Positions 2,490-34,132 of a stretch of DNA of 61,321 nucleotides are shown in pieces. The translations under genes and the position numbers were made by a program. Each line of letters opens with the position of its first letter. Position 1 is the first letter of the stretch. The notes beneath the pieces were generated by a model. The model had not been told where the DNA came from. It worked only from the letters and a program-made list of their open reading frames with translations, and ran no database searches. Source of the DNA: a virus; IMG/VR virus record IMGVR_UViG_3300021181_000012, positions 1 through 61,321 of that record. One strand, written 5' to 3'.

Positions 2490-2503
2490 CCGGAATTTAC
2501 CCG

Positions 2504-2953
2504 ATGGAACGCCATTACAAGCTCGACGACAATCACGAACTGGTGCCGTGCGATCTACTCACCTGGGCTGAATGGCTAGAGACTGCCGGAGAGAAGCGGG
2601 TGGTTGGGCAACAGGTCGTGGGCCGCTTCTGGGTCTCAACCGCCTGCCTTGGCCTCGATCACGACTTCTCGGCGATGCACCTGATCCGCGAATACGGCGG
2701 CGGCATTCCGGTTGATTTCTACCGCCCGCTGGTATTCGAGACCATGGTCTTCATGGCCGCCATCTCAGAGATTGAAATGTCCAGCTCGAAAAAGAAGATG
2801 AAGTATCACGAGCCGCAAGGGTACCAGACCCGGTACCGCTCCTGGGATGACGCCAAAGCGGGGCACGAGCACGCCGTGAAGCTTATGACGCGGTACGACC
2901 GGATGCTAACGCACCACCAGAATGTGCTGGCCAGACTTGAAGGTGATTTGTGA
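2504..2953 (+). CDS. hypothetical phage protein, 149 aa
   Basis: The start is taken at ATG 2504, just beyond the inverted repeat. An upstream in-frame start would run through the repeat. The protein contains a FETMVF segment and a YQTRYRSWDDAKAGHE segment, a pattern I associate with small phage proteins of unknown function encoded near the edge of early operons. It has no membrane segment. Its stop overlaps the GTG of the next gene by four bases, so four consecutive genes here are coupled. Confidence 0.8.
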   Translation: MERHYKLDDNHELVPCDLLTWAEWLETAGEKRVVGQQVVGRFWVSTACLGLDHDFSAMHLIREYGGGIPVDFYRPLVFETMVFMAAISEIEMSSSKKKMKYHEPQGYQTRYRSWDDAKAGHEHAVKLMTRYDRMLTHHQNVLARLEGDL

Positions 2954-3381
2954 CCAACCTCGCAGTACAAATATTTGCCGACGTTATTTTGTTCAGCGTG
3001 ATCGGATTCAACATCGCCATTACGCGGAAACTCAGGCGCAGTGCGCGCGAGATGAAAGCCGAGTGCGCCGAACTGGCGCAGTTTAATCGCGACAAGTTCC
3101 CCATGATGGTTTCCGCGCTGGAGCGGCTGGCGGTGGCCGTGTGCCCACTGTGCGCGTTGGCGGCCGGAGAAGGTCGCGGAGAATGCGAGGGCGAGGCCAT
3201 GGCCGCCGACGCCGAGATCGATGGCCACCACGCGGTCTATGTGCGGGGCGGGTGCGGCACGACGCCCTGCCGGGCAGCAAGCATTCGCGCCGACGCCCGT
3301 AGGCTCTTCGCGGAAGCGTTTGGGGAAGGCGAGGACTTCACTATCGTGGGCGCGCCCGTGAAAGAGGGTGAACCGTCATGA
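2950..3381 (+). CDS. membrane-anchored hypothetical protein, 143 aa
   Basis: It starts at GTG 2950, overlapping the previous stop. One N-terminal transmembrane helix (about residues 6-24) is followed by a basic, coiled-coil-prone stretch. The C-terminal half is Ala/Gly/Glu-rich and carries several Cys. No catalytic motif is evident. Its stop overlaps the ATG of the macro-domain gene (ATGA), indicating coupled translation. Confidence 0.7.
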   Translation: MTNLAVQIFADVILFSVIGFNIAITRKLRRSAREMKAECAELAQFNRDKFPMMVSALERLAVAVCPLCALAAGEGRGECEGEAMAADAEIDGHHAVYVRGGCGTTPCRAASIRADARRLFAEAFGEGEDFTIVGAPVKEGEPS

Positions 3382-3809
3382 AGCAGATTCACGGCAATCT
3401 TTGGAGCTGGTACGGGAAGCCCTCCATCATCGTGCTCATCACCACCAATGGGATCGTGACTGCGGGCGGGCGGGCCATCATGGGGCGAGGCTGCGCGGAA
3501 GAGGCCAAGCTGCGGTTCAAGGACATCGACCTTGAGCTGGGCCGCAACATCCGCATCCACGGCAACCAGATGTACTCGCTGGGCGGCGGCCTGATCTGGA
3601 GTTTTCCGGTGAAGCGTGACTGGCGCGACCAGGCTGACCTCGGGCTGATCGGCGAGTCGGCCAGCCAGCTCGAAGCCATGGCGCTGAAGCGCGCCGAGGA
3701 ACATTTCATCCTGCCCCGGCCAGGCTGCGGCAATGGCGGACGAACCTGGGATGAAGTTGAGCCGGTGATCGACTTCCTGCCTGACAACGTGCTGGTCATT
3801 TCCAAGTGA
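3378..3809 (+). CDS. macro domain protein (ADP-ribose-binding or -hydrolysing)
   Basis: The 143-aa protein is a single macro domain. ITTNGIVTAGGRAIMGRGCAEEA supplies the ADP-ribose loop (residues about 22-44), and LPRPGCGNGGRTWDEVEPVI is the C-terminal phosphate loop of phage and bacterial ADP-ribose phosphatase-like proteins (written here as two overlapping landmarks, PRPGCGNGG and W..V.P). Macro domains remove ADP-ribose marks or process ADP-ribose-1''-phosphate left by RNA repair. An RNA ligase, a nucleotidyltransferase and a phosphoesterase occur in the same window, so an RNA-repair or anti-defence role is reasonable but inferred. Confidence 0.85.
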   Translation: MKQIHGNLWSWYGKPSIIVLITTNGIVTAGGRAIMGRGCAEEAKLRFKDIDLELGRNIRIHGNQMYSLGGGLIWSFPVKRDWRDQADLGLIGESASQLEAMALKRAEEHFILPRPGCGNGGRTWDEVEPVIDFLPDNVLVISK

Positions 3810-4114
3810 GGCCGGAGATTAGCAGCGGCTTCGCGCGTGCCCGGCGAGCCGCGAAACGCTTCCACATCTGCACCCGCTGCCTCACCAAGAAAGCCGAGAG
3901 AAAAGGGAAGCGATGGTTGACCAAGTGCAGCGATTGTAATCAGCACGAGCGAGACACCGCGCCCGCGCGCCTGCGAAAAAAATATAAGGAATCCGATGCA
4001 GCCGGGCTGTGCGTGCGCTGCAATAAAAACGCGCAGCAGGACACTAATAAGCGGTGCGAGCCCTGCGAAGCGAACCACCAGAAAATAAAAAAGGCGTCCC
4101 GAAAGGACGCCTGA
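3806..4114 (+). CDS. small basic zinc-ribbon protein, 102 aa
   Basis: GTG 3806 overlaps the macro gene stop by four bases. The chain has two Cys pairs near the start (CTRC, CSDC) and two more later (CVRC, CEPC), and it is very rich in Lys and Arg. This suggests a two-module zinc-binding nucleic-acid-binding protein. Its last codons lie inside the hairpin at 4093-4111, which also serves as terminator for the converging gene. Confidence 0.75.
   Translation: MRPEISSGFARARRAAKRFHICTRCLTKKAERKGKRWLTKCSDCNQHERDTAPARLRKKYKESDAAGLCVRCNKNAQQDTNKRCEPCEANHQKIKKASRKDA
4084..4111 (-). terminator. intrinsic terminator for the leftward gene
   Basis: GGCGTCC (4093-4099), loop CGAAA and GGACGCC (4105-4111) form a perfect 7-bp stem. 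On the minus strand it is followed by a T-rich run at 4092-4084. It lies 23 bp after the stop of the 4134-4814 gene. Confidence 0.85.
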
Positions 4115-8858: not shown

Positions 8859-9044
8859 TTAGTCACTGAACTTCGAATGCGCCGCTTGCCATGCCAAGGC
8901 ATCGCAGTAATACGACTGCCGCCCATCGGCAACGCATTGCTGATAAATCTTGTCGTGATACGCCTGCTCTTGTTTGACCGAGTAACTTGCGAACAGGCCG
9001 ATGGTCCACAGAATCAGCGCAATCCAAACTACGAAGCGAAACAT
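8859..9044 (-). CDS. single-pass membrane protein, 61 aa
   Basis: The N-terminal helix FRFVVWIALILWTIGLFASY spans a membrane. The rest is a short polar domain with two Cys. The ATG overlaps the stop of the ligase C-terminal gene (TAATG), so it is coupled to the ligase. It could be an anchor or a small inhibitor. Function unknown. Confidence 0.65.
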   Translation of the reverse strand: MFRFVVWIALILWTIGLFASYSVKQEQAYHDKIYQQCVADGRQSYYCDALAWQAAHSKFSD

Positions 9045-9262
9045 TACGCGTTGTCCTTTTCGAGGAACGAATTCGACACGATCTTCAACTGCACGCGGCC
9101 GAGGCCACGCTCGTGGCGCTCAATCAGCGGCTCGATCACTACACCCTCGCGGATGTTGGTTGCGCCCGCCACCATCGACTTACCTTCCGCCAGAGCCTTC
9201 ACCATGGCCGAATCGAACGGGCCGATATGTAGAACGGGAACTACTTCGATGCCGTCAGACAT
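9044..9262 (-). CDS. C-terminal piece of a split DRB0094-type RNA ligase (motifs IV and V)
   Basis: This 72-aa ORF starts at ATG 9262, eight bases after GGAGGAG, in the -1 frame relative to the upstream ligase ORF, overlapping it by 22 nt. It contains REGVVIEP (ligase motif IV) and LKIVSNSFLE (motif V, catalytic Lys). In single-chain ligases of this family both lie at the end of the same polypeptide. Alone it cannot adenylate RNA, so it must work with the 9241-10338 product as a second subunit or through frameshifting. A real ribosome site favours separate initiation. A sequencing error is the other explanation. Confidence 0.75.
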   Translation of the reverse strand: MSDGIEVVPVLHIGPFDSAMVKALAEGKSMVAGATNIREGVVIEPLIERHERGLGRVQLKIVSNSFLEKDNA

Positions 9263-10338
9263 TCGAGCTTCTCCTCCAGAGGGGCGGAGCGAATGCGGCC
9301 CACTAACATCGGGTCCACTTCTTCCTGCCACAGATTGTTAATGTTGACGGTGGTCATCTTCGGCGCCCAGCCGTGCGGGCCGAGAATATCGAAGAGGAAG
9401 AACCGCACCTTGCCCGGCTCAGCGCCGTAGCGGAACTTGTCGCCCTGGGTTGGCACCACTTCGCCATAGAGCGTGTAGCCAGGATGTTCGCGGCACCACT
9501 GCTCGATGGCGGGATTCTGTTCGAGCGCATCGCGCCACACACACTTCGCGCCGGGGCTCTTCCACATGGTGCGCGAGCCCACATACATCACGCCGTCTTC
9601 GAAGGTGTAGCGGGCGTTCGAGCCGTGGATCTTCTCGGTCACGATTACCTGCTCGCCTTCGTGCAGCGCGTGTGGATAATTCTTGAAGCCTTCCACGTCA
9701 TAGACGCGGCGGTCTTCCTTGGGACCGCGCTGGCTATGGCCGCCAGTGTTCCCGTTCGGGCGAAAGCCCAGCAACTCCAGCAGCCAGTACCACCAGCCCA
9801 TCAGCGAACGAGGCCAGCCGGTGCGCTGCTGGCGCGCCTGCCGAGTGTCGAGACTCTGGGGCTCGGGCGGCTGATAGTGCGAGATGCCCATGGCGGTAGA
9901 AAGGTCATCGCCTTCCTTGGGGCTGCGAACGGTCGAAGCATCATAGATGCGCACCCAGTTCGGGATCTGAACCAGCAAACCTTCCGACCATTCCTTGCGA
10001 AACTTGCGCGGGATCACACGCCGGTGCTTGACGGGGATGTCGTCGTTCTCGGTAAAACCCTTACCAGCCCACATGAAGGCGAATTGCTCGGAGTTCGGCA
10101 CCACGCTGTCGGGCTGTACATAAACAGCCAGGTCGCCGACTTCGAACTCACCCAGCTTCACAACGATCTGGTAGCCGTCCACCTGCACAATGCCCAGGGT
10201 GTCGGCGTTGGGGTGTTTCAGAATCTCCGCAATGCGGACAACGGGGGCCTGGTGACTTTTTTTCTTCGTCTCTTTGTCCTGGTCGCGATCCAGCTCTGGG
10301 ATCTTGCCGTAAAGGCCGTCAATGGCAACGCTGCTCAT
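9241..10338 (-). CDS. RNA ligase, DRB0094/Rnl5-like, N-terminal and main catalytic part
   Basis: The 365-aa protein has an N-terminal OB-like tRNA-binding-type domain (about residues 30-140, including HPNADTLGIVQVDG) and an adenylyltransferase domain. Motif I is VTEKIHGSNAR with the AMP-accepting Lys near residue 233. Motif Ia is VGSRTMWK, then YGEVVPTQG and the motif III region RFFLFDI. The ORF stops before motifs IV and V, which lie on the next overlapping ORF. Ligases of this family seal 3'-OH/5'-phosphate breaks, typically in nicked RNA. It is central to an operon of small genes and may repair phage or host tRNAs cut during infection. Confidence 0.85.
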   Translation of the reverse strand: MSSVAIDGLYGKIPELDRDQDKETKKKSHQAPVVRIAEILKHPNADTLGIVQVDGYQIVVKLGEFEVGDLAVYVQPDSVVPNSEQFAFMWAGKGFTENDDIPVKHRRVIPRKFRKEWSEGLLVQIPNWVRIYDASTVRSPKEGDDLSTAMGISHYQPPEPQSLDTRQARQQRTGWPRSLMGWWYWLLELLGFRPNGNTGGHSQRGPKEDRRVYDVEGFKNYPHALHEGEQVIVTEKIHGSNARYTFEDGVMYVGSRTMWKSPGAKCVWRDALEQNPAIEQWCREHPGYTLYGEVVPTQGDKFRYGAEPGKVRFFLFDILGPHGWAPKMTTVNINNLWQEEVDPMLVGRIRSAPLEEKLECLTASK

Positions 10339-17022: not shown

Positions 17023-17344
17023 CAAGGCGGCGGTGCTGGCATCCCTGGCCGGATGCCGGGTGCAGGAAATGCAGCGCTGGCTCGCCATCGGCTCCATACG
17101 CGAGCAAGTCAGGATGCGGGCGGGTGACGCCTGTGAGCGCTGCGGAACGATGTTGACCAGCGCCACCGGCGAGATGCACGAGACCAACCCGCGCGGCAAA
17201 GGTGGAGAGATCAGTCTCGTAAATTGTGAATGGCTGTGTCACGACTGCCACCAAGGCAAGGCGGACTCGGCGCATGGCGATCGTAGATTGCACTTCGGAG
17301 AAGTGACCAATGTCGATACCCCGGTGTACTCATGGCGTCTATAG
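16934..17344 (+). CDS. HNH endonuclease
   Basis: 136 aa. CERCGTML and LCHDCHQGKADSAHGDR give the two Cys pairs and the HNH core, with MHETNPRGKGGE as the first His strand and NCEWL linking them. The N-terminus is basic. It starts inside the 16306-17022 gene and ends inside the next gene, so three frames overlap in a row. It may be a homing or a packaging-associated nuclease. Confidence 0.85.
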   Translation: MPYTRKNKRRVHRVLVEMKNGQPFRIFRSDKAAVLASLAGCRVQEMQRWLAIGSIREQVRMRAGDACERCGTMLTSATGEMHETNPRGKGGEISLVNCEWLCHDCHQGKADSAHGDRRLHFGEVTNVDTPVYSWRL

Positions 17345-21061: not shown

Positions 21062-22654
21062 ATGCGATATCTCATTCACCGCGCAGTAGCGATCGGTAAC
21101 CCGCCCCAGAGTCAGCCGCTGAACGACCGTCAGTCGAAAAACAGCGCTGGCGGTTACAGTTTCACTCTGGATAAGTGGGGCAAGCTCGACCGTTTTCTCA
21201 TCCTAGGCAGCGAAGGTGGCAGTTACTATGCCAGCGAGCAGAAGCTTACCGAGGAGAATGCCACCAATCTGGCAGCGTGTGTGAAGGAAGATGGCATTAA
21301 GGTGGTCAAGCGCATCGTCGAGATCAGCGATGCGGGCCGGGCTCCGAAGAACGACCCGGCGCTGTTCGCTCTGGCTTACGCCTCGGCGAAGGGCGACGAC
21401 GACACGCGTAGTGCGGCTCTGGCTGCACTGCCCAAGGTCGCACGCATCGGCACGCATCTGTTCCACTTCACCGCCTTCGTCAACACCATGCGAGGCTGGG
21501 GCCGTGGACTGCGGAAGGCCGTAGGTAACTGGTATGCCCAAGCTGGCGAAGAAGATTGGGATCGCCTGGCCGAGCAGGTCACAAAGTACCAACAGCGTGA
21601 GGGCTGGAGCCACCGCGATCTACTGCGCCTGGCGCACCCCAAGCCGACCTGCCGTCCGCACCAGGCAATCGCTAAGTGGGTAGTCAAGGGCGGAGAGTTG
21701 AACCAGACCGCGCCCGAGAAGTTGGTGGGCCACGTTGAACTGCAAGAGGCCACGACGCCGAAGCAGGCCGTGAAGCTCATCACCAAGTACGGGCTCGTGC
21801 GCGAGTCCGTGCCCACTGAACTGCTGAAGTCTCCTGAGGTATGGGAGGCCCTGCTCGCGCGGATGCCCATGACGGCGATGATTCGCAACCTGGGCAACCT
21901 GTCGAAGTGCGGGTTGCTGACTCCATTGAGCGAAGCCTCGAAGATGGTAGTCGAGCGGCTGAGCGAGGAAGCGCTGCTGAAGAAGGCGCGCGTACATCCG
22001 ATTCAACTCTTGATCGCGCAAAAGACTTACGGCTCCGGCCATGGCAACAAAGGCAAAGGCGAATGGACGCCCGTGCCCCAGGTAGTTGACGCATTAGACG
22101 GCGCTTTCTACTCAGCCTTCCAGAACATTATCCCGTCAGGCAAGCGCTTCTACCTGGGGCTCGATGTGTCGGGCTCGATGTCCTGCGGCGAAGTAGCCGG
22201 AGTCAACGACTTCACGCCTCGCGAGGCATCGTCCGCCATGGCCATGGTCACGGCGCGCAGCGAGCAGAACTACTACGTCGCTGGCTTCCAGGAGCGCATG
22301 ATCCAGCTCATGATTACGCCGAAGTCGCGGCTCGATCAGATCTGCTCTGCTACGGCGAAGCTGCCGTTCGGCTCTACCGATTGCGCCCAGCCCATGCTGG
22401 ACGCGCTGGCAAAGAAGTTGCCGGTGGACGTGTTCGCGATCTACACCGACTCCGAGACCTGGAGTGGAACAACGCACCCAACCGTGGCCCTGGAGCGCTA
22501 CCGCCAGCAGACTGGCATCCCGGCGAAGTTGATTGTCGTCGGCATGGTGGCCAATCCGTTCACGATCGCCGATCCGAACGATGCTGGCATGTTGGACGTG
22601 GTCGGATTCGATTCAGCGACGCCGCAGATCATCTCACAGTTCGCGGAGGCGTAG
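21062..22654 (+). CDS. rsr: Ro60 (TROVE + vWA) RNA-binding ring protein
   Basis: 530 aa, the size of animal Ro60 and bacterial Rsr. The N-terminal TROVE domain (about residues 15-350) shows YSFTLDKWGKLDRFLILGSE, QKLTEENA and GWSHRDLLRLAHPKP (separate landmarks). The C-terminal vWA domain has an intact MIDAS: GLDVSGSMSCG, FGSTDCAQP and IYTDSETW. In characterised bacteria Ro60 forms a ring that binds misfolded RNA and Y RNA, which tethers it to PNPase for degradation of structured RNA. Six Y RNA candidates follow 266 bp downstream. The start ATG follows AAGGAG. Confidence 0.97.
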   Translation: MRYLIHRAVAIGNPPQSQPLNDRQSKNSAGGYSFTLDKWGKLDRFLILGSEGGSYYASEQKLTEENATNLAACVKEDGIKVVKRIVEISDAGRAPKNDPALFALAYASAKGDDDTRSAALAALPKVARIGTHLFHFTAFVNTMRGWGRGLRKAVGNWYAQAGEEDWDRLAEQVTKYQQREGWSHRDLLRLAHPKPTCRPHQAIAKWVVKGGELNQTAPEKLVGHVELQEATTPKQAVKLITKYGLVRESVPTELLKSPEVWEALLARMPMTAMIRNLGNLSKCGLLTPLSEASKMVVERLSEEALLKKARVHPIQLLIAQKTYGSGHGNKGKGEWTPVPQVVDALDGAFYSAFQNIIPSGKRFYLGLDVSGSMSCGEVAGVNDFTPREASSAMAMVTARSEQNYYVAGFQERMIQLMITPKSRLDQICSATAKLPFGSTDCAQPMLDALAKKLPVDVFAIYTDSETWSGTTHPTVALERYRQQTGIPAKLIVVGMVANPFTIADPNDAGMLDVVGFDSATPQIISQFAEA

Positions 22655-22864
22655 ATGCAGGTGCAGATCCCGCAGGTCACGCTCGAAGACACCAAGGGGT
22701 TCGCCGAGGCGTGGAATAAGTCGAGGCCCATCGTGGTGATCTTCGATCCGCACGACCTGGCGTTCGCCCAAGCATTCGCGAACTTCGCAGTGCAACGAGT
22801 TTTCGCTGGCCTCATCGCGCAACAGGAAGCAGAAGCGAAGAGGCTGACGGTTGTGGAACCATAG
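22655..22864 (+). CDS. small protein between Ro60 and the Y RNAs, 69 aa
   Basis: ATG 22655 follows the Ro60 stop with no gap (TAGATG). A short beta strand (PIVVIFDPHDLAFA) is followed by an amphipathic helix (AFANFAVQRVFAGLIAQQEA). No family is recognised. Its position makes it a candidate accessory factor for the Ro60-Y RNA particle, but that is positional inference. Confidence 0.7.
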   Translation: MQVQIPQVTLEDTKGFAEAWNKSRPIVVIFDPHDLAFAQAFANFAVQRVFAGLIAQQEAEAKRLTVVEP

Positions 22865-32941: not shown

Positions 32942-34132
32942 TTATTGGAGAGCTTGCCGAACCGCGCCAACCGCTTTCTTCCCGGCTTGGTATATGTTCT
33001 TGGCCCCTGATTCAAGGATCGGCGTAACGTCGCCCCTTGACGGAGCGGCCGGATGCGCAGCAGGATCGTCTGCGTAGCCTTGGTCAACCAACAACTTGTT
33101 AGCTTTCACCATATCGCCGCCGCTTTGAGAGAGCGCTCTCTTAGCCACATCCACGGGAGCTGTCATCCCCTGCGTCGTAGCCTTGGGGATCGCCGTGGTC
33201 GCATTGATCCCGAGCGCCTGGGTTTGCAAGCCGCGCAGAGTTTCCTGCTGCTGCTTCAGTTCATCGGCGCGCGCCTGGTCGTTCTGGTTCTTGGCTTCGA
33301 TGATGCTTTTCTCCAGGGAGTCAATCTCTTTGGTCAGAGTCCCGGCAATCGCAAATGCGGCCTTGGGATTCTTGGCGCTCAACTGTTTCAGCGCATCCTG
33401 GGTGGTCGCATTCGGGTCCGTCTTCTTCATTTCATCGAAGGTCTTGTTCCACTCAGTGAGGCCACGGTCCAGGAGCTGAGAATTTTTCTCGTCCTTGCTG
33501 GCCCGACCAGCCTCGGCGGAGTCCTTTAGGGCGGCGGCGTCCAACTGCCGAATGCGCGCCGAGGTCTCGCCATTCTTCAGCTTCTCGTTCTCGTTCGCCA
33601 GGGTCTGCTGGTGCGCTTTTTCATATTGACCGGTGAGGACAGAGAACTGTTGCACCGGTATCGATTGACCAACGCGTAACTTCTCGGTCGTGCCAGGATA
33701 GTAGGTGTCGATCTTCGATTGCTTCAACAAGTCGAGATATTCTTTTGTAAGCGGGACCGAGGCGTCCTTGTCGAACGCGCTATACACGGGAGCGTAGGAA
33801 GATGTAGTGTTCCCGGCCTTGTCGGTGGTTAGAATCGTTTTAACGCCGGTCTGTTCCCAGTCCCACGCGGTAGCTTTCGGGTTCGCCTTGATGATGGCGT
33901 CCATCTCCTGTTGCGACTTATTGTCTGCCATCGGCGCAACACCGGCTGCCCGGTAAGGCGAGAACTTGGCGATGCTGTTTTCCGCTTCGCGCTGGTATAA
34001 GCCAAACTTTCGGTCTTCACTGAAGGCGTTGATGGTTTGCTGGGTCCTTAACGTCTCCAGGTTCTCGTGGGCGATCGTGGCCCTCCGCATCTCTTGCTCA
34101 GTCTGAAAGCCCTGGGCCTCGCGCTGATTCTT
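32942..34132 (-). CDS. coiled-coil internal virion protein, downstream part after an amber codon
   Basis: From 34132 an open frame of 14 codons (KNQREAQGFQTEQE) leads to ATG 34090 and then 382 residues, mostly coiled coil (for example KIDTYYPGTTEK flanked by heptads; ESIIEAKNQNDQARADELKQ region). The same frame upstream is the 34133-34558 gene, separated by one TAG only. The coiled coil looks continuous across it. ATG 34090 has only a weak ribosome site. Either separate initiation, readthrough or a recent nonsense mutation explains this. Confidence 0.75.
   Translation of the reverse strand, partial: KNQREAQGFQTEQEMRRATIAHENLETLRTQQTINAFSEDRKFGLYQREAENSIAKFSPYRAAGVAPMADNKSQQEMDAIIKANPKATAWDWEQTGVKTILTTDKAGNTTSSYAPVYSAFDKDASVPLTKEYLDLLKQSKIDTYYPGTTEKLRVGQSIPVQQFSVLTGQYEKAHQQTLANENEKLKNGETSARIRQLDAAALKDSAEAGRASKDEKNSQLLDRGLTEWNKTFDEMKKTDPNATTQDALKQLSAKNPKAAFAIAGTLTKEIDSLEKSIIEAKNQNDQARADELKQQQETLRGLQTQALGINATTAIPKATTQGMTAPVDVAKRALSQSGGDMVKANKLLVDQGYADDPAAHPAAPSRGDVTPILESGAKNIYQAGKKAVGAVRQALQ

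Follow-up and report, generated by a model that had tools for sequence, protein, structure and literature searches.

Some phage enzymes are encoded by genes in pieces, i.e., by two ORFs in place of one. The nrdA gene of phage Aeh1 is split by mobE, and the resulting NrdA is fully functional (PMC2988022). The 43A and 43B products of phage 25 copurify with activity, and in phage 44RR what separates the two parts of gene 43 is an untranslated spacer, with no endonuclease (PMC2988022). Genes in pieces are thus already known in phages; a "split" or "two-subunit" RNA ligase, or one encoded by two genes, was not found in the literature searched. The RNA ligases of the DRB0094 type, with the Naegleria gruberi enzyme (PDB 5cot and the 6vt series) as their solved relative, are single chains in which an N-terminal OB fold precedes a C-terminal nucleotidyltransferase domain, with all the catalytic motifs present. 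The solved mutants of the Naegleria ligase include K170A, E312A and K326A.

The locus discussed here belongs to a soil phage (IMG/VR record IMGVR_UViG_3300021181_000012, positions 1 to 61,321; this whole stretch of 61,321 nt is called the window). It has the same domain order and the same catalytic motifs as the DRB0094-type ligases, but motif I and motifs IV and V lie on separate ORFs, named ORF-A and ORF-B. The arrangement is best explained as a real, derived gene fission that probably yields a functional two-chain RNA ligase, a reading to which a probability of about two in three is given and in which we infer assembly and activity from the sequence.

Layout of the gene pair and its active site

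The features of the locus, all on the (-) strand, are the following.

9241-10338 (-), ORF-A, 365 aa: OB-fold domain and nucleotidyltransferase motifs I to IIIa of a DRB0094-type RNA ligase
9631-9633 (-), K236 of ORF-A: motif I lysine (EKIHG), the predicted adenylated residue by alignment to 5cot
9248-9321 (-), extra segment of ~74 nt (3n+2), edges approximate: codes for the ORF-A tail and carries the ORF-B start signals
9271-9277 (-), GGAGGAG: putative ribosome-binding site of ORF-B, ending 8 nt before the ATG at 9262
9241-9262 (-), overlap of 22 nt between the end of ORF-A and the start of ORF-B, which is in the -1 frame relative to ORF-A
9044-9262 (-), ORF-B, 72 aa: nucleotidyltransferase motifs IV and V
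9146-9148 (-), E39 of ORF-B: motif IV glutamate (REGVVI), by alignment to 5cot
9083-9085 (-), K60 of ORF-B: motif V lysine (LKIVS), by alignment to 5cot
9042-9046 (-), TAATG: stop of ORF-B joined to the start codon of the small ORF that follows

The original prediction had described the frame, the overlap and the position of GGAGGAG exactly as they are found, and had placed EKIHG on an upstream ORF devoid of motifs IV and V, with which both the coordinates and the division of the profiles agree. ORF-A matches the PHA02142 OB fold (PF21189, E 2.7e-15) and then positions 2-94 of the RNA_ligase profile PF09414, the same profile of which ORF-B matches positions 118-170. The TIGR02306 profile (RNA_lig_DRB0094) is shared between positions 6-128 (best stretch) on ORF-A and 278-341 on ORF-B, and PHROGs family phrog_968 is likewise divided between the two. 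The TIGR02306 scores, 87.9 bits for ORF-A and 36.2 bits for ORF-B, are both below the curated cut-off of 151 bits, as expected when one protein is divided.

Alignment to 5cot assigns KIHG and FLFDI (motif IIIa) to ORF-A, and REGVVI and LKIVS to ORF-B; K170, E312 and K326 of the Naegleria ligase align with K236 of ORF-A and with E39 and K60 of ORF-B, respectively. The placement of the motif V lysine on the second ORF was therefore right, as judged by this alignment and by its K326A counterpart. The break had been located between motifs III and IV; it does lie before motif IV, and its position can now be refined to the stretch just after motif IIIa. It follows from the chemistry of the family that both parts would have to join, since one chain carries the motif I lysine and the other the motif IV glutamate and the motif V lysine. 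By contrast, ORF-A alone could have taken another role (e.g., RNA-end binding), with ORF-B unused, as its OB fold is intact and its tail is new. This is extremely unlikely, because motifs I and III on ORF-A and IV and V on ORF-B have all been kept, which is sensible only for joint catalysis, and because the tail is predicted, at low confidence, to be poorly ordered.

The start signals of ORF-B are rare and strong among the ATGs of the window: at the same spacing, the GGAGG core precedes 10 of 1720 and the full GGAGGAG only 2 of 1720, so the putative ribosome-binding site is more than chance. The TAATG junction behind ORF-B is typical of a tight operon. Codon usage across the extra segment follows the ORF-A frame (score 0.42; in-frame 5-95% range 0.18 to 0.73), and in the ORF-B frame it passes from an out-of-frame-like -0.29 before the ATG to an in-frame 0.49 from the ATG on, the switch of coding frame falling at the ORF-B ATG. 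These data bear on programmed -1 ribosomal frameshifting, by which A and B would be joined as one protein, and for which speak the -1 frame of ORF-B, open over 94 nt of overlap, and the presence of single-codon slips (C CCG, G GGC, C CCT). Frameshifting is nevertheless very unlikely: besides the non-coding-like codon usage of the ORF-B frame before its ATG, the X XXY YYZ heptamer is absent, the RNA structure is not unusual (z -0.10), and the fused product would have more than 20 surplus connector residues. A split intein was also considered and rejected, as neither an Int-N Cys/Ser1 nor an Int-C HN before Cys/Ser/Thr occurs in the short ORF-A tail or the ORF-B head MSDGIEVVPVLH.

The extra segment and its origin

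In the window, 251 nt separate FLFDI from EGVVI, which is no multiple of three, whereas 65 fused relatives have connectors of 49-72 codons (median 59) between motifs IIIa and IV. An excess of ~74 nt, e.g., from GAAGTG at 9321 to GAAGTA at 9247, explains both the length and the frame. Because the extra segment holds the ORF-A tail together with the ribosome-binding site and the ATG of ORF-B, a single insertion can account for the entire arrangement.

The excess also tells against a sequencing or assembly error in an ordinary fused gene, an explanation suggested by the metagenomic origin of the assembly and by the fused state of almost all the relatives. A one-base change would still leave the connector more than 20 residues too long, and a second contig, IMGVR_UViG_3300021405_000009 (98,239 bp), has the identical split. 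This contig matches the window without a difference over the 7,095 nt that surround the split and over a further 26 kb, and differs from it by seven mismatches in another 9 kb; it is thus no mere copy of the window record, while shared reads between the two assemblies are possible. A one-base indel or sequencing slip is ruled out by the second contig and the ~74-nt excess, and the probability left for an error of any kind is negligible. The second contig starts and ends with the same ~147-nt stretch of the window (33194-33341) and, on account of this repeat, is probably a complete circular map of the phage.

As for the source of the segment, phage records yielded no match to the ORF-A tail taken by itself. 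A tandem duplication of the VPVLY-GPFD segment was evaluated by the similarity of adjacent segments, which is unusual with the 74-nt unit fixed (0.1-0.3% of controls) but not over all unit lengths (0.12); at the protein level the similarity had p 0.07, and the tail obtained no score from the core profile. No homing endonuclease gene is found at the break in the window, where there are only 74 nt. The DNA similarity of the insert to the 3' end of an HNH endonuclease gene that interrupts a related ligase (locus L136, see below) did not reach significance (shuffle p 0.105; genome control 0.19), and P0006, considered under the HNH-remnant idea, had no match in the window phage. Under fair controls, then, the evidence for either origin, HNH remnant or tandem duplication, falls short of significance; the equivalent start of the C-terminal ORF in L136 weakly favours the endonuclease. 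An HNH-domain ORF unrelated to the HNH gene of L136, at the level of the PF01844 cut-off, is present at 17132-17263.

Fused relatives and a second fission in the same loop

Viral contigs scanned by alignment gave 147 loci with a ligase match, and in 135 of these the ligase is in one ORF; the others are contig-end truncations, the window phage again, two broken genes (L071 and L155), one gene with a split intein (L086) and L136. In the C-terminal scan one ORF was found at 64 of 71 loci, and the ligase gene of Tunturiibacter phage Tunturi_3 is fused as well. The nearest ligase, L242 from an Acidobacteria MAG, reads as fused, yet it has two N exactly at the junction; the closest relatives that are securely fused are therefore L027 and L115. 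For two phages whose terminases are related (77-82%), the contigs contain no ligase. Since nearly all the relatives are fused, the split of the window is derived; the tree places the fissions of the window phage and of L136 apart, each surrounded by fused genes in well-supported groups, so that the gene must have split twice. A fused gene in phages related to this one had been named in advance as evidence against a genuine split. Such genes are indeed the rule, and what they indicate is a derived split, not an error.

The organization of L136 (IMGVR_UViG_3300038463_000150) is as follows.

2492-3463, ORF-A': ligase that stops in the same loop as that of the window
3444-3833, HNH endonuclease ORF, 129 aa (phrog_3106, E 4e-27): free-standing, overlaps the end of ORF-A'
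3830-4048, ORF-B': starts behind AGGAGG with MSLKEHWVPVLYTGPFD

Like the window phage, L136 has a DRB0094-type ligase split in this loop, with a C-terminal ORF that starts from the equivalent residue behind a strong putative ribosome-binding site; the distance from the Met to VPVL is exactly that of ORF-B. Unlike the window phage, it has an HNH gene between the two halves, and it is an independent event in the tree. Thus, this ligase can be cut in the loop, and one of the agents that do so is a selfish endonuclease. Among the 80 loci at which this HNH family was examined, a ligase is nearby at L136 alone. It is possible, and proposed here tentatively, that a homing endonuclease repeatedly cuts this one loop and was lost in the window phage, leaving a stable, obligate two-chain ligase with motif I on A and motifs IV and V on B.

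The ligase might instead have been inactivated recently, the insertion having broken the gene and both ORFs being debris not yet decayed. In keeping with this, the exact split form is confined to one phage species (two near-identical contigs), and the ligase genes of the related phages L071 (2507-2911) and L155 (2435-3015) are truncated or internally deleted, from which it appears that the gene can be lost or is dispensable. Against it, both ORFs keep all the motif residues, the strong putative ribosome-binding site is at the right place, and L136 is cut in the same loop with ORF-B' intact. Furthermore, ORF-B has no excess divergence: its conservation relative to ORF-A (+0.049) is among the highest of 57 sequences and as good as in the fused homologues, which argues against relaxation, although selection on the split state is not measurable from one species and a recent break would be equally well conserved. 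Inactivation is therefore considered rather unlikely. The claim that this is a genuine two-part gene and no simple error is well supported by the second contig, the ~74 extra nt, the undecayed ORF-B and the independent fission of L136.

Other interruptions and additions were noticed in this family. Inteins bearing LAGLIDADG endonuclease domains are located exactly at catalytic motif I (KIHG then S/C) of the phage DRB0094-type ligases L035 (1-2217) and L099 (659-2710), and the near-copies L145-L147 probably contain the same insertion. In L086 (2513-5096) the ligase is divided by an apparent split intein, and a free-standing, endonuclease-like DUF7487 ORF lies between the intein halves. In L306, L307 and L322 (156-821 and 1535-2722) the full ligase gene is preceded by an additional, shorter ORF that resembles a ligase.

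A candidate two-chain ligase and its known counterparts

The preferred reading, a functional two-chain ligase, would start from a single-chain DRB0094-type ancestor. An insertion of ~74 nt into the surface loop between motifs IIIa and IV would have broken the gene, shifting the frame, terminating ORF-A and supplying the ribosome-binding site and the ATG of ORF-B; one likely cause would be the insertion of an HNH gene that has since been lost. The two ORFs would then be translated separately, with coupled translation, from one message, and the chains would reassemble spontaneously and non-covalently into a working ligase, to which chain A would contribute the OB fold and the adenylated lysine, and chain B the motif IV glutamate and the motif V lysine. 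In the predicted structure of the fused relative L027 (mean pLDDT 85.5), the cut falls between the helix 298-304 and the strand 314-319, and the strands of motif IV (344-349) and motif V (362-366) come after it. On this model, ORF-B would add strands to the catalytic domain, which would imply a large interface between A and B. The poor order predicted for the ORF-A tail counts against the two-chain reading.

Such a ligase may mend RNA that host defences have cleaved. Further RNA-repair proteins are encoded by the phage, namely RlaP (945-1742), a Ro60 protein (21062-22654) and a metallophosphoesterase (23684-24499); in jumbo phages, the occurrence of RlaP closely follows that of RNA ligases (PMC7824862). 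The RlaP nucleotidyltransferase gene (945-1742, -) adjoins that of a short protein similar to the HisRS catalytic core (1732-2388, -), possibly an RNA-end repair pair. The Ro60 (TROVE and vWA) gene, a tRNA-Ile(GAU) gene (23123-23197) and the metallophosphoesterase gene lie in a row at 21062-24499.

If the two chains work together, they would form a naturally occurring ATP-dependent RNA ligase of two chains, in which each of two genes supplies part of the catalytic motifs. The few genes in pieces known to work would gain a further enzyme, and conditional RNA joining would have a split ligase at hand. The endonuclease-bearing state (L136) and the endonuclease-free state (the window) would both be represented. 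The likeness is to Aeh1 nrdA, T4 gene 60/39 and gene 43 of phages 25 and 44RR, all of which are phage enzyme genes in two ORFs; gene 43 of 44RR shares with the window the absence of an endonuclease at the split. The putative window ligase differs from them in being another enzyme and in having a short overlapping junction with no endonuclease gene.
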